From an uncultured Lachnospiraceae bacterium (GTDB lineage Bacteria > Bacillota > Clostridia > Lachnospirales > Lachnospiraceae), in assembly GCA_945949045.1 (NCBI GenBank), contig CAMFDG010000013.1, positions 1 to 51,452 of the forward strand: a stretch of 51,452 nt of DNA, given 5' to 3'. Within the stretch, counting starts at the first letter, position 1. Every line of letters begins with the position of its first letter. A program made the position numbers and the translations under genes. The notes below the pieces were generated by a model that made no database searches, was not told where the DNA came from, and saw nothing but the letters and a program-made list of their open reading frames with translations. Shown here piece by piece: positions 28,499 to 39,687 of the stretch.

Positions 28499-29605
28499 AT
28501 GTTTTCAGAAAATGATCAGATATCCATCCGTCAGGTATTTCGGCTGTTTGCCTTTGACTTTATCGGGGGGAGCACACTGGTGCTGCCTGCCGTACTTTCC
28601 GGTCTGGCTGGGGTGGATGGCCTGTGGAGTATCCTGTTGGGAGGCGGCATCGCAAGCCTGTACCTTTTCTACCTTGGTTTGGTCTTAAGGCGGATTGATA
28701 CGGATTTTCTGACCTTTCTGCAGCAGCGGCTTCCGGTTTGGCCGGCAAAGGGAATTCTGGTTTTTCTGACGATTCACTGCGTTCTGGTGGCGGGTTATGC
28801 GGCATATATTTTTGCGGATGTGATGAAGCTTGGTCTGGTTACGGGAGAGAAGTACAGCCTGATTCTGGCTCTGATCCTCTTAGCTGCTGCCTATGCGGTC
28901 TGTGGGGGAGTGGAGAGCCGGGCAAGGGTATATGAGGTTTTATTCTGGCTCCTTTTTATCTCTCTTTTTCTCATGCTGCTGTTGGCGGCAAGAGATATGG
29001 AGGCTGTTAATCTGACTCCGTTTTTTGCCGCTCCTGCATCCTCTGTGGGGAAGGGAGGGTGTCTGGTGTTTTTCTGCATGACGCCCCTGTTTTTAACGCT
29101 TTTTTTCCCCGCCTATGTGGGAAAAGGAAAACGTGGAAAAATGGTGCTTGCAGTGTTTGCGGCCCTGTGGTTTGCGGTGGGGGTGCTCGCAGTTTTCTAT
29201 GTGATCCTGATTGGAAATTTCGGAGCTTCTTCTCTTGCTTTTATGGGGTATCCGGCGGTAACTCTGATGAGCAGTATTGAACTGCGGGGGAGCTTTTTGA
29301 AACGGTTTGACGCCTTCATGATCGGGATCTGGTTCTTTACTTTATTTGCATTGGTGAATGTATTTTTATTTTATGGAAAACTGTTTTTGCAGAAGGCTTT
29401 TTCCTGTCAGACCAGGGGAAAAAAGGCGGCGGCCTTTGTGACAATTCTTATTCTGGTTTACGTAACAGCTATGCTTTTTCAGATGGTTGGAAGCGCTGCC
29501 GTTTTCACGGATTACATGAGATATTTTGCAATACCGTTTCTGGTCATTCTCCCGGCGGCAGTGTTTGTGCGGGGGAAGAGGACTGACAGCGGTTCGTATC
29601 TGTGA
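28499..29605 (+). CDS. GerB-family spore germination permease subunit
   Basis: A 368-residue integral membrane protein with about ten hydrophobic segments of the amino-acid-permease-like GerAB/GerKB family. It is thought to be the nutrient-binding subunit. RBS AAGGAGG lies 7 bases before ATG. It starts 4 bases after the A subunit stop. An 8-bp hairpin (CGTATCTG/CAGATACG) spans its stop codon without a T-tract, possibly protecting or attenuating the message before the C subunit. Confidence 0.92.
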   Translation: MFSENDQISIRQVFRLFAFDFIGGSTLVLPAVLSGLAGVDGLWSILLGGGIASLYLFYLGLVLRRIDTDFLTFLQQRLPVWPAKGILVFLTIHCVLVAGYAAYIFADVMKLGLVTGEKYSLILALILLAAAYAVCGGVESRARVYEVLFWLLFISLFLMLLLAARDMEAVNLTPFFAAPASSVGKGGCLVFFCMTPLFLTLFFPAYVGKGKRGKMVLAVFAALWFAVGVLAVFYVILIGNFGASSLAFMGYPAVTLMSSIELRGSFLKRFDAFMIGIWFFTLFALVNVFLFYGKLFLQKAFSCQTRGKKAAAFVTILILVYVTAMLFQMVGSAAVFTDYMRYFAIPFLVILPAAVFVRGKRTDSGSYL

Positions 29606-29675
29606 GGGTACTGAACAGATACGATAAAAGATAGAATGATGAATGGTTTGACAGGGGAAAGGAGAGGATAAGAGC

Positions 29676-35142: not shown

Positions 35143-35598
35143 GTGGAAAATCAAATGGAGGAAAAGAAAGAACAAAAGAGCCGGGGCCCGGGGAAGGGGG
35201 CCTTCGGCTTTTGGTTTCTGATGGACCTGTTCATCATGATATTGGCTGCGGCAGGATTTTTATTTTTGTGGGTATGGGTTTCCTACCGGATGAGGTACTC
35301 TGCAGAGGTTATCCGTGTGGGACTCATTTTCGTTTATATACTGCCATGTATGTTAGGCGGACGCCTGCTTTTCATCTGCAGGCATTCTTATCTGCCCTTT
35401 TGGGGTGCCCTGATGGGAGGGCTGTTTTATGGCCTTCTGTGTCTGTGCACTCTGTTGGTGAAAGGGGGAGATTTTTCCTTTGAAACAATAGAATGGACCA
35501 CACCGGTTTTGTGTATTCTCAGTGGAATGGTGGGGGCGATTCGCTCCGATGTTTCCCAAAACAGGCAAAAGGGTAGGAAATCAGTACGAAATGAATAA
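35143..35598 (+). CDS. TIGR04086 family membrane protein
   Basis: A 151-residue protein with four hydrophobic segments after a charged N terminus (residues 1-22). It fits the TIGR04086 family, which in Clostridia sits next to SCIFF peptides. Start is GTG behind AGGGAGGG. Its function is unknown. By genomic association it may help export or anchor the modified SCIFF product, but that is inference. Confidence 0.8.
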   Translation: MENQMEEKKEQKSRGPGKGAFGFWFLMDLFIMILAAAGFLFLWVWVSYRMRYSAEVIRVGLIFVYILPCMLGGRLLFICRHSYLPFWGALMGGLFYGLLCLCTLLVKGGDFSFETIEWTTPVLCILSGMVGAIRSDVSQNRQKGRKSVRNE

Positions 35599-35682: not shown

Positions 35683-35826
35683 ATGAAGCATGTAAAGACC
35701 TTAAATACAAGAAAATTACAGAACACACTGAAAAAGGGTGGCTGCGGCGAATGCCAGACCTCATGCCAGTCTGCATGTAAGACATCCTGCACCGTTGGTA
35801 ATCAGAAGTGTGAACAATGTCAGTAA
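35683..35826 (+). CDS. scfA: SCIFF ranthipeptide precursor with a seventh cysteine
   Basis: A 47-residue RiPP precursor of the SCIFF family (six cysteines in forty-five residues). The leader is MKHVKTLNTRKLQNTLKKGG and the core has Cys at 21, 24, 28, 32, 36 and 43. An extra Cys46 sits next to the end. The Cys32 and Thr37 pair, joined by a thioether in the characterised Clostridium thermocellum homologue, is present. The last two codons (TGT CAG) and the stop TAA lie within the first copy of the palindromic repeat that follows, so the repeat may have rewritten the C terminus. I chose the ATG at 35683 over upstream ATGs at 35677 and 35602 because it matches the family start. Confidence 0.92.
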   Translation: MKHVKTLNTRKLQNTLKKGGCGECQTSCQSACKTSCTVGNQKCEQCQ

Positions 35827-35953
35827 TCTCTGATTACTGACCCAGCCCGAGCTATCGCGAAGCGATTGTGCATGGCGAGGGTAAAATGTCAGTAATCTCT
35901 GATTACTGACAGGGCCCGAGCCATCGCGAAGCGATTTTGCATGGTGAAGGTAA
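35816..35953. repeat. Tandem compound palindromes overlapping the SCIFF stop codon
   Basis: Two 69-bp units (35816-35884 and 35885-35953) share about 62 of 69 positions. Each has a perfect 10-bp hairpin GTCAGTAATC/GATTACTGAC, then a second structure with outer strands CCCGAGC and GCGAGGG around ATCGC-GAA-GCGAT. The outer stem of the second structure contains adjacent G-A oppositions. The strand TTTTGCATGG is shared with the repeat at 10.7 kb. The array fills most of the gap between the SCIFF and maturase genes. Confidence 0.88.
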
Positions 35954-35955
35954 GA

Positions 35956-35983
35956 AGACCGCGTGCCCTGCGCGCGGTCTTTG
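35956..35983 (+). terminator. Hairpin between SCIFF and its maturase, possible attenuator
   Basis: An 8-bp stem AGACCGCG/CGCGGTCT with a 9-base loop is followed by TTGT only. A partial terminator here would make the small precursor more abundant than the maturase. Confidence 0.55.
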
Positions 35984-36013
35984 TCATGTTAGAGAAAGAG
36001 AGGAAATATTGTA

Positions 36014-37369
36014 GTGGTTCATGAGTTTAAGAACAACGGCTATGATATTGTCTTAGATGTCAACTCCGGTGCGATCCATGTCGTGGATGATGTCACCTAT
36101 GATGTGATTGGAATGTATGAGGAGCACACGAAGGATGAGATTGTCCGGACACTTTCGGACAGGTATCCGCAGGCGGAGATTGAGGAAGCAATCGATGAGG
36201 TACAGCAGCTCAAAGAGAACGGGGAACTGTTCACAGAGGATGTGTATGAAGACCGCATTATGGACTTTAAAAAACGTCCGACCGTGGTCAAGGCACTTTG
36301 CCTGCATATCGCCCATGACTGTAATCTTGCCTGCCGTTATTGCTTTGCAGAGGAAGGCGAATATCATGGAAGAAGGGCACTTATGTCCTACGAGACCGGA
36401 AAGCAGGCCCTTGATTTTCTGATTGCCAATTCCGGTAACCGGAAGAATCTGGAGGTGGATTTTTTCGGTGGGGAACCGCTTCTCAATTTTGATGTTGTCA
36501 AGCAGCTGGTTGCCTACGGACGGGAGCAGGAGAAGCTTCACGACAAGCATTTCCGGTTTACATTGACAACGAACGGTGTGTTGTTAAATGATGACATTAT
36601 GGAATTTGCCAACCGTGAGATGGATAATGTGGTTCTGAGTATTGATGGGCGAAGAGAGGTTCACGACCGGATGAGGCCTTTCCGGAATGGGACAGGCAGC
36701 TACGATCTGATCGTTCCCAAGTTCCAGAAATTTGCGGAAAGCCGGAATCAGAGTAAGTATTATGTCCGTGGAACCTTTACCCATTTTAATACGGATTTTT
36801 CCAGAGATGTTCTTCATCTGGCAGATCTGGGCTTTCAGCAGATTTCGGTGGAGCCGGTGGTGGCCCAGCCGACGGATGAATATGCATTGACGGAAGAGGA
36901 TCTGCCGGTCCTTTTTGAAGAGTATGATAAGCTTGCTGCTGAGATGGTTCAAAGGAAGAGGGAGGGAAGGGCCTTCCATTTCTTCCATTTTATGATCGAT
37001 CTTGAGGGTGGGCCTTGTGTTTATAAGCGGCTGTCAGGATGTGGCTCAGGGACGGAGTATCTTGCGGTGACCCCATGGGGAGACCTCTATCCGTGCCACC
37101 AGTTTGTGGGAAACGAGGATTTCCTGATGGGTAATGTCTGGGATGGCGTGAAGAACACCGAGCTTCGGGACGAATTTAAATGCTGTAACGTCTATGCGAA
37201 GGAAAAATGCCGTAACTGTTTTGCAAAGTTCTATTGTAGTGGCGGATGTGCCGCAAACTCATACAATTTTCACGGAAGTATTACGGATGCTTATGATCTT
37301 GGCTGTGAACTTCAGAAGAAACGTATCGAGTGTGCGATCATGATAAAGGCTGCTGAGGCAGAAAATTAA
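36014..37369 (+). CDS. scfB: SCIFF radical SAM maturase (SPASM domain)
   Basis: A 451-residue enzyme that installs thioether crosslinks in SCIFF. The N-terminal region (residues 1-85) has the precursor-recognition (RRE-like) fold found in such maturases. The radical-SAM cluster is Cys103-x3-Cys107-x2-Cys110 (CNLACRYC). The C-terminal SPASM part has CGSG, YPCHQF, CCNVYAKEKCRNC and CSGGC, enough Cys for two auxiliary clusters, and a last Cys in LGCELQ. Start is GTG behind AGAGAGG. It lies about 190 bases after SCIFF and is followed 20 bases later by secDF, the conserved clostridial arrangement. Confidence 0.95.
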   Translation: MVHEFKNNGYDIVLDVNSGAIHVVDDVTYDVIGMYEEHTKDEIVRTLSDRYPQAEIEEAIDEVQQLKENGELFTEDVYEDRIMDFKKRPTVVKALCLHIAHDCNLACRYCFAEEGEYHGRRALMSYETGKQALDFLIANSGNRKNLEVDFFGGEPLLNFDVVKQLVAYGREQEKLHDKHFRFTLTTNGVLLNDDIMEFANREMDNVVLSIDGRREVHDRMRPFRNGTGSYDLIVPKFQKFAESRNQSKYYVRGTFTHFNTDFSRDVLHLADLGFQQISVEPVVAQPTDEYALTEEDLPVLFEEYDKLAAEMVQRKREGRAFHFFHFMIDLEGGPCVYKRLSGCGSGTEYLAVTPWGDLYPCHQFVGNEDFLMGNVWDGVKNTELRDEFKCCNVYAKEKCRNCFAKFYCSGGCAANSYNFHGSITDAYDLGCELQKKRIECAIMIKAAEAEN

Positions 37370-37389: not shown

Positions 37390-39687
37390 ATGAAAAAAAG
37401 TAAGGGCGTCGTTATCATCGCGTTGATCCTGGCCTGTCTGGTAGGTCTGGGGTATTATACGACCACAATCGTGACAACGACAAGCACAAGTCAGGCAAAG
37501 ACTGACAACAAGGAAAAGTCCGAGGGAATCAAGCTCGGTCTTGATCTTTCCGGTGGTGTGTCCATTACCTATCGTATCGTGGACAAGAACCCGTCAAAGG
37601 AAGATATCAACGACACTGTGGCAAAGCTGGAAGAGCGTGCCGAAAGTTATAGTACCGAGTATGCAGTATATCCGGTGGGAGACGATCGAATTACTGTTGA
37701 GATTCCGGGTGTTTATGATGCCAATGCGGTGCTGGAGGATTTGGGCAGTCCTGGATCTTTGTACTTTATCGTACAGAAGGGACCGGACGGAACCGATAAC
37801 TACAGCTATGGAAGTGACGGACAGTATCAGCTGAACAAGGATATTGATACGCTGCAGGAAGAAGGATCTATTCTTTTTGATGGGAATGCTGTCAAATCTG
37901 CGAATGCTGCTTACAATCAGGATCAGAGCACAGGCTCCAAGGATCCGGTGGTTCAGCTTGCTTTTAACAAGGATGCTGCAGAGATTTTCGGCGATGCAAC
38001 AACAAAAGCCTATACAAATGGTGAGACCATCGGTATCTATTATGATGATCACTTCATCAGTGTACCGTCCGTAAACAGTGCCATTACCGATGGACAGTGT
38101 ATCATCGAGGGACAGGCTGATTACGAGGAAGCAGAACAGCTGGCAACCTTCATCCGTGTAGGTGCCATTAACTTAAAGCTGGAAGAGATGGAGTCAAGCG
38201 TTGTGGGTGCACAGCTTGGTGGAAAAGCTCTTTCCTCCAGTGTAAAGGCAGCCATCATTGGTCTGATCCTTGTAATGCTGTTTATGATCATCTGCTATGG
38301 TCTTTCCGGTGTGGTTGCATCTATCGGCCTGGCAATTTACACAACATTAGTGGTTTCACTGATCTATCTGTTTGAAATTACCCTGACACTGCCAGGTATC
38401 GCGGGTGTAATCCTTGGTATCGGTATGGCGGTAGATGCCAATGTTATCATTATCTCCCGTATGCGGGAGGAGGTTGCCAGCGGTAAATCCGTACTTACTT
38501 CCATTAAGGAAGGTTACAAGAAGGCAATGTCAGCCATTATCGATGGTAATGTGACGACCTTTATTGCAGCGCTGGTACTGATGTGGCTTGGTTCAGGTAC
38601 TGTGAAGGGATTTGCTTACACCTTAATGATTTCCATTCTTGTGTCTGTATTTACAGCACTGGTGATTTCCAGACTCCTCAATATGGCATTGTATGGTGTG
38701 GGTTTCAAGTCCGAAAAGTGGTATGGCCGTGCAAAGCAGCATAAGACCATTGATTTTATCAAACATCGTTGGGTATATTTCATTCTTTCCCTTGTTGTGA
38801 TTGCATCAGGATTTGTGGGAATGATTGCCTACAGCGCATCCGGAAACCGTGCGTTAAACTTCAGCCTTGAGTTCATGGGTGGTACTTCTATCACCGCTGA
38901 TTTTGGTAAGGATTACACAGTTGAAGAGGTTGAGGAGAAGATTGTACCGGAGGTTGCAGATGTGATCGGTGATAATGCGATCCAGGCAAGTACCGTATCC
39001 GGAAGCACCAGTGTCACCATTAAGACAAAGACATTGTCTCTGGAGGAACGTGAGGCTGTCGGCAATATGCTGGTGGATAAATTCGGCGTTGACGAGAAGA
39101 CCATCGAGAGCCAGAGTATCGGTTCCACCATCAGTGGTGAGATGAGAAAGAACGCCATTCTTGCAGTTATTGTTGCCTGCATTTTTATGCTGTTCTACAT
39201 CTGGTTCCGTTTCAAGGATATCCGTTTTGCAGGAAGTGCTATTATTGCGCTGGTACATGATGTACTTGTAATGCTGACCGCTTATGCGCTGATCCGTATT
39301 TCGGTGGGTAATACCTTTATCGCATGTATGCTGACCATCGTGGGATATTCCATCAACGATACCATCGTTATTTTCGACCGTATCCGTGAGAATATGAGAA
39401 GTCTGAAGAAACAGACACCGGAGACGCTGGCAGAGGTTGCCAACCGTTCTCTGACACAGACACTGACAAGATCTATCAATACTTCTATTACCACCATAAT
39501 CATGGTACTGCTGCTGTTCATTCTGGGTGTATCTTCCATCCGTGAATTTGCATTACCGCTTATGGTTGGCTTGATCAGTGGTACGTATTCTTCTATTTTC
39601 ATTGCGGCAAATCTGTGGTATGTTATGAAACTTCATCTTGGCAAGAACCGCCTGATGAAGAAGAATGATGGCAAGAAGACAAAGTAA
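37390..39687 (+). CDS. secDF: Protein translocase subunit SecDF (fused)
   Basis: A 765-residue RND-type membrane protein that uses the proton gradient to pull exported proteins through SecYEG. The SecD half has one N-terminal helix, a periplasmic-type P1 domain (GLDLSGGVSITYRI) and five helices with GIGMAVDANVIIISRMREE. The SecF half repeats the plan (FSLEFMGGTSITADF) and has VGYSINDTIVIFDRIREN. The fusion is complete with no frameshift. ATG follows AGGAAGGAAAC. A terminator follows. Confidence 0.96.
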   Translation: MKKSKGVVIIALILACLVGLGYYTTTIVTTTSTSQAKTDNKEKSEGIKLGLDLSGGVSITYRIVDKNPSKEDINDTVAKLEERAESYSTEYAVYPVGDDRITVEIPGVYDANAVLEDLGSPGSLYFIVQKGPDGTDNYSYGSDGQYQLNKDIDTLQEEGSILFDGNAVKSANAAYNQDQSTGSKDPVVQLAFNKDAAEIFGDATTKAYTNGETIGIYYDDHFISVPSVNSAITDGQCIIEGQADYEEAEQLATFIRVGAINLKLEEMESSVVGAQLGGKALSSSVKAAIIGLILVMLFMIICYGLSGVVASIGLAIYTTLVVSLIYLFEITLTLPGIAGVILGIGMAVDANVIIISRMREEVASGKSVLTSIKEGYKKAMSAIIDGNVTTFIAALVLMWLGSGTVKGFAYTLMISILVSVFTALVISRLLNMALYGVGFKSEKWYGRAKQHKTIDFIKHRWVYFILSLVVIASGFVGMIAYSASGNRALNFSLEFMGGTSITADFGKDYTVEEVEEKIVPEVADVIGDNAIQASTVSGSTSVTIKTKTLSLEEREAVGNMLVDKFGVDEKTIESQSIGSTISGEMRKNAILAVIVACIFMLFYIWFRFKDIRFAGSAIIALVHDVLVMLTAYALIRISVGNTFIACMLTIVGYSINDTIVIFDRIRENMRSLKKQTPETLAEVANRSLTQTLTRSINTSITTIIMVLLLFILGVSSIREFALPLMVGLISGTYSSIFIAANLWYVMKLHLGKNRLMKKNDGKKTK

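Follow-up and report, generated by a model that had tools for sequence, protein, structure and literature searches.

A hairpin over the stop codon of a SCIFF precursor gene, beside a module that shares its core with a mobile-type palindromic family in Lachnospiraceae

Introduction

How did the end of a SCIFF (six-cysteine ranthipeptide) precursor gene come to lie inside a palindromic repeat, and did that repeat give the peptide its seventh cysteine? The gene occupies positions 35683-35826 of the window, by which we mean the whole 51,452-nt stretch of DNA from an uncultured Lachnospiraceae bacterium that was analyzed; the precursor and maturase genes and the hairpin modules given with coordinates below are on its forward strand. 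A preliminary description had proposed that a mobile or expanding 69-bp palindrome was inserted at the end of this gene and supplied Cys46, Gln47 and the stop codon. Characterized SCIFFs contain a single thioether formed from Cys32, the partner being given in conflicting ways, as Thr37 or Thr34, in the accessible part of the source (PMC8326336).

Results and Discussion

The open reading frame at 35683-35826 encodes 47 residues with seven cysteines, ends in ...KCEQCQ* and carries its seventh cysteine at residue 46. Residues 2-44 match the entire 43-position NCBIfam model TIGR03973 (E 2.4e-25, 88.2 bits; cut-off 50), and the product of the next gene (36014-37369) matches TIGR03974 (E 2.3e-246, 817.9 bits; cut-off 425), identifying a SCIFF precursor and its adjacent radical SAM/SPASM maturase. 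The pair is preceded by a gene for a TIGR04086-type membrane protein (35143-35598) and followed by a SecDF gene (37390-39687), and the corresponding loci of genus mates coincide in sequence with Agathobacter sp. and Roseburia faecis records. While the gene pair and the peptide core fit the family models in the manner of other SCIFF/ranthipeptide systems, the cysteine at 46 lies beyond the modeled positions, as it does in 13 other distinct relatives among 103.

Two direct copies of a 69-bp unit (35816-35884 and 35885-35953) follow one another with 90% identity, and Tandem Repeats Finder reports a period of 69 with 2.0 copies and 89% matches. The preliminary description correctly placed codons 46-47 and the stop codon (TGT CAG TAA, 35818-35826) inside the first unit and recognized palindromic DNA there, but the unit is not one palindrome; it is a composite of a hairpin over the stop codon (hereinafter P1) and a second module with a GCGAAGC core (P2). 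P1 spans 35819-35841 as GTCAGTAATC-TCT-GATTACTGAC, with ten perfect pairs over codons 46-47 and the stop, and P2 spans 35842-35884 around the core TATCGCGAAGCGATTGTGCATGG, which is common to a dispersed element of other genomes. The second copies, recovered as direct repeats, lie at 35888-35910 (P1, non-coding, also seen in the palindrome search) and 35911-35953 (P2, core CATCGCGAAGCGATTTTGCATGG). RNA from 35810-35990 folds with -85.9 kcal/mol (z -7.75). The P1 palindrome occurs twice in the window against 0 occurrences expected from shuffles, and allowing up to 3 mismatches it was found nowhere else in the assembly (2.16 Mb, 80% complete). Since the 69-bp unit has a single place in this assembly, the idea that it is dispersed through its own genome was rejected. 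At gathering scores, Rfam models across the window return tRNAs only; when eight P1/P2 loci were searched with E up to 1, one tRNA and four sub-threshold matches were obtained.

For comparison, we surveyed 154 SCIFF loci (L004-L157), in 148 of which a precursor frame was found (the six without one being L068, L075, L076, L077, L118 and L156), yielding 103 distinct sequences. P1 lies in the same register relative to the stop codon in eight species (L004, L005, L006, L007, L008, L048, L014 and L065). With pairs taken from the fold of each sequence and counts given as species rather than events, seven of the ten core pairs have changed on both sides (at -8, -7, -6, -5, -4, -1 and the base directly following the stop), two do not vary in the species that have them and one has changed on one side only; the last two core pairs are missing in L014 and L065. 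The changes at -5 and -4 occur in one sister pair only (L014 and L065), those at -8, at -1 and at the post-stop base in L007 alone, and T-G (G-U) pairs stand at -3 in L007 and L048.

The coding arm resembles the gene ends of hairpin-free relatives, which read TAC/TAT AAA/AAG/CGT stop: TAT CGT TAG of L040 (Tyr46, no long stem) compares with TGC CGT TAA of L014, and TAC AAA/AAG stands beside TGT/TGC AAG. Since the coding arm is native-like and the downstream arm tracks it species by species, we read the downstream arm as a copy of the gene end. The downstream arm is the reverse complement of the coding arm and the changes in the two are linked, as is expected of a template-switch hairpin.

Perfect stems of at least 8 bp cover the stop in 5 of the 13 members of the window's subclade against 0.04 expected from shuffles, the boundary of this subclade having been drawn after the stems were seen and several branches being poorly supported. 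Among the other 90 relatives there is none (0.1 expected), and stems of at least 6 bp number seven (2.07 expected). Across all 103 sequences the mean stem is 3.84, a small excess over the 3.04 of shuffled sequences and the 3.36 obtained with swapped downstream regions; where stems are longest, hardly any or none of the downstream regions swapped in from other relatives pair equally well. In a 48-nt fold test, only 0 to 4 of 300 shuffles were as good in L004-L008, L048 and L014, the result being weak for L017 (23/300) and not special for L065, L016, L031, L019 and L040 (67 to 204 of 300).

On balance, these comparisons incline us moderately to a reading in which P1 lies over the gene end with its downstream arm as an inverted copy, brought about by template switching and/or RNA selection, and the 69-bp unit would be a later expansion. 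P1 would belong to the window's Agathobacter subclade independently of the tandem unit, and the coding end would be the template, not the product, of the palindrome. Replication template switching (quasipalindrome correction), selection for an RNA stem, or the two together would have produced the arms and preserved their complementarity. P2, with a core common to a mobile-type element family, lies beside P1, and P1 and P2 together would then have been duplicated in tandem to give the 69-bp repeat of this genome. Position 46 would have become Cys on several occasions through point mutation (TAT/TAC to TGT/TGC, for instance), in genes that have the hairpin and in genes that do not. At the RNA level, P1 would most likely fold into a stem where the precursor message ends, in front of a further hairpin, P3, that separates precursor and maturase, and would protect or define this 3′ edge. 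The anatomy, the common register, the both-arm changes and the presence of Cys46 without the repeat are observed, whereas we infer the template switching, the order of events and the mRNA role of P1.

According to the accessible parts of two sources, a single template-switch event creates reverse-complement hairpin arms, which the process also repairs (PMC8794818), and coding arms in yeast have been changed in this way (PMC8604942). Measured against what those parts describe, the SCIFF hairpins are alike in their perfect reverse-complement arms, their both-arm changes and the involvement of a coding arm; they differ in that the arm here is the stop region of a bacterial peptide precursor gene and lies beside mobile-type modules.

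Template switching and RNA selection predict an identical pattern. It is possible, though we hold it to be less probable, that RNA selection acted without any template switching, P1 being a functional 3′ stem (for protection, processing or stoichiometry control) kept by compensatory mutation. The constant register, the pairs changed on both sides, the T-G (G-U) pairs of L007 and L048 and the recurrence of P3 as a further hairpin beside P1 would all suit such a stem, but the absence of perfect stems of at least 8 bp from all 90 relatives outside the subclade means that its function would be dispensable.

The P2 core (CATCGCGAAGCGATT) lies inside a dispersed MITE-like element of other Lachnospiraceae. 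It is present in 10 of 62 genus genomes and 13 of 397 family genomes, sets in which the reversed control pattern has no match, and reaches 21 copies in G021, 18 in G173 and 8 in G323; some single core matches outside Agathobacter (L201, L202 and L204) look by eye like chance matches in coding sequence. The element is mostly 132-144 bp long with ends such as GTAACNGTTCAG/CTGAACNGTTAC, and many of the core copies that were read lie inside it. It is short, multi-copy and bounded by terminal inverted repeats, as MITEs are. Both ends could be set by rule at 25 of 41 loci tried; 21 of these 25 show an 8-bp target-site duplication with at least 6 of 8 positions equal and 13 with 8 of 8, compared with 15/600 and 0/600 for swapped flanks, although choosing the ends for maximal flank agreement gives a locus's own flanks some advantage, and L184 has flanks that look like the end of the element itself. 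On these grounds we class the element as MITE-like. Its GTAA ends and 8-bp duplications may point to an IS66-type origin. Loci of this palindromic family are L167-L195, L207-L224 and L173-L189.

Of the mobile character first ascribed to the whole repeat, what is supported is that one half of it, P2, has its core in common with this mobile-type element. The terminal repeat GTAACNGTTCAG has no match, with up to 2 mismatches, in the SCIFF array (35810-35990), so that the 69-bp unit has the core only. P2-like sequence stands beside P1 in G005 and G053 and, in a form that looks degenerate by eye, in G010 and G026. The nearest relative found in a draw of 40 genus genomes (G037; maturase 95%) has one P1, without the second unit and without P2. 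Outward pairing of 47 distinct P2-core modules is weak evidence, 7 of them showing no extension and many one pair only, for which we take asymmetric stems to be the cause. At one locus (L006, in G005), the spacer 3′ of the SCIFF gene apparently holds nested palindromes, the last part of which repeats most of the P1 sequence.

Related modules also change or end the C-termini of other genes. We read thiI at 30 loci, out of 59 genomes with a match. In G036 and G054 the gene runs into P1-(P2-P1)n arrays built from 74-bp units and containing five and two copies of P2, respectively; the TGA stop is inside the first P1 and the protein ends in VVS* (L225/L188 in G036, L226 in G054). At the other 28 loci the perfect stem at the gene end never exceeds 4 bp, and 18 of the 28 proteins end in [VI][DE]AE. 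Between G054 and G036, the internal thiI P1 has changed in both arms, and the last G054 copy in one arm only. As for the SCIFF array, 69 is 3 x 23 and the second unit copy also reads CQ* in frame; the thiI unit is 74 bp long, which leaves no case for readthrough of the 69-bp unit.

Within the window, a solo module corresponding to the 3′ end of the MITE-like element (29594-29624, TCGTATCTGT-GAGGGTACTGA-ACAGATACGA) provides the TGA stop and the last residues of a spore-permease gene (28499-29605, PF03845), which is the one gene among 45 mechanically chosen long window ORFs with a perfect stem of at least 6 bp over its stop. By eye, the solo module is at the spore-permease gene in 0 of 10 relatives read, out of 34 other genomes with a match. 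Its loop motif pattern is present in 23 of 62 genomes, and 20 of 30 loci with the loop motif have a strict stem; in three of these 20 (the window, G016 and G053) the TGA of the module closes an open frame of more than 200 codons.

Could P1 and P2 then be one bipartite mobile element, inserted at the gene end in the subclade ancestor and reshaping the tail once, with G037 as a collapsed array that lost P2 by recombination between P1 copies? We find this rather doubtful. P1 and P2 do stand together at thiI of G036 and G054 and are both missing from the 28 other thiI loci read, the ThiI tail VVS* differs from the [VI][DE]AE of 18 of those 28, and similar layouts are seen by eye in G297, G032 and G131; the P1 sequences, however, are wholly different between loci, the SCIFF array is without the terminal repeat of the dispersed element, and the SCIFF 5′ arm looks native because it can be aligned with hairpin-free relatives.

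A broader proposition, which we put forward only tentatively, is that palindromes arise again and again over stop codons in Agathobacter and its kin (SCIFF, thiI and the spore permease), beside or from mobile-family modules. Palindrome and last codons would then evolve as a unit, and template switching may write C-terminal residues into proteins, a RiPP precursor among them; Gln47 of three species would be one example and Cys46 perhaps another.

The origin of Cys46 itself was addressed by comparing the C-termini of relatives. Because the NCBIfam model stops at residue 44, residues 45-47 form a variable tail. The 103 distinct SCIFFs comprise 57 of 47 residues, 45 of 46 and one of 48, with six cysteines in 89 and seven in 14, the seventh always at position 46 of 47; in the 57 peptides of 47 residues, position 46 is C in 14, N in 12, S in 10, Y in 9, H in 8, T in 2, A in 1 and Q in 1. 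G037, lacking both tandem unit and P2, yet ends in ...KCENCQ* and so encodes Cys46-Gln47-stop, an observation that the preliminary description had itself named as contradicting its proposal. Cys46 also occurs without a perfect stem of 5 bp in L027, L069, L092, L112 and L141, with a 6-bp stem in L047 and with an interrupted stem in L017; L080/L040 (maturase 91%) have the tail Tyr-Arg and no long stem. On the maturase tree (97 rows; six distinct loci, L069 included, were omitted because their maturase pieces are short), Cys46 needs at least 8 changes and P1 only 3. Counted by independent pairs, the association of P1 with Cys46 comes down to a single pair on well-supported branches and is not informative.

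The 69-bp unit did not bring the cysteine, because G037 has it without the unit, other loci have it without the stem, and 57 of 103 precursors are 47 residues long. The model of the preliminary description, in which insertion of the 69-bp palindrome brought Cys46-Gln47-stop to the gene, is accordingly improbable: the codons do lie within the first unit, Cys46 is found in seven of the eight species with a long P1, and Gln at the last position is confined to three species that have the window's P1 sequence in common, but the tail of G037, the stemless Cys46 loci, the prevalence of length 47 and the many more changes of Cys46 than of P1 on the tree all speak against it. What stands of that model is the expansion, tandem in the window and more complex in G005, and not the gain of Cys46. 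P1 may nevertheless be linked to the sequence of the tail, since G037 keeps P1 and seven of the eight long-P1 species have Cys46. That the repeat reflects faulty assembly or binning of a draft genome (80% complete, 78 contigs) is highly improbable, given that the two unit copies differ by 10% and that P1-P2 sequence stands at the same place in other assemblies (G005 and G053).

What the locus offers, a stop-codon hairpin that a subclade has retained next to mobile-type modules, is a variation on known things. BOX elements of pneumococcus are modular repeats whose module number varies, and the layout here is likewise modular, a likeness of description and not of sequence. In Coxiella burnetii, QMITE1/2 are MITEs at gene 3′ ends with altered C-termini, as far as the accessible part of the source describes them (PMC5896051); by that description, again not by sequence, they resemble the thiI and spore-permease ends, and the SCIFF unit differs in being without the terminal repeats of the dispersed element. 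Rickettsia palindromic elements, about 150 bp long, are inserted within genes and alter the encoded protein, in the part of the source available (PMC10969869); they share with the SCIFF locus, to that extent, a palindrome inside a gene, and differ in that the coding arm here is native-like and covers the stop region only. Among the matches listed in the open-licence literature, the top-ranked titles and abstract openings hold no description of these elements or of a SCIFF-stop hairpin.

The tempting reading of a repeat that adds a cysteine is thereby corrected, and replaced by a testable one in which the gene end has to work simultaneously as code, as stop signal and as hairpin arm. The comparison also reveals in Lachnospiraceae a palindromic family of mobile type, whose target duplications are clear and whose modules end several genes, and provides loci at which persistence of stop-codon hairpins by mutation bias can be tested against persistence by selection.

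Between precursor and maturase, P3 (35952-35984, GACCGCGTGC-CCT-GCGCGCGGTC) is an intergenic G+C hairpin with a weak T tail. Its motif GACCG...CGGTC forms the best hairpin found between the two genes in 61 of the 103 distinct relatives, a T-rich tail follows the best hairpin at 58 of the 103 distinct loci, and in some other clades this spacer is occupied by a G+C hairpin other than P3. A terminator scan of 35827-36013 lists stems in the P3 region only, marking the inner part of P3. P1, which is without a T tract, is not a terminator by itself, and it was rejected as an intrinsic terminator for want of a T run after the stem. It is reasonable to infer that P3 may act as an attenuator that lowers maturase relative to precursor. 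Elsewhere in the window, a 65-bp tandem repeat of 2.5 copies lies at 81-244, between tRNA genes at the contig start.
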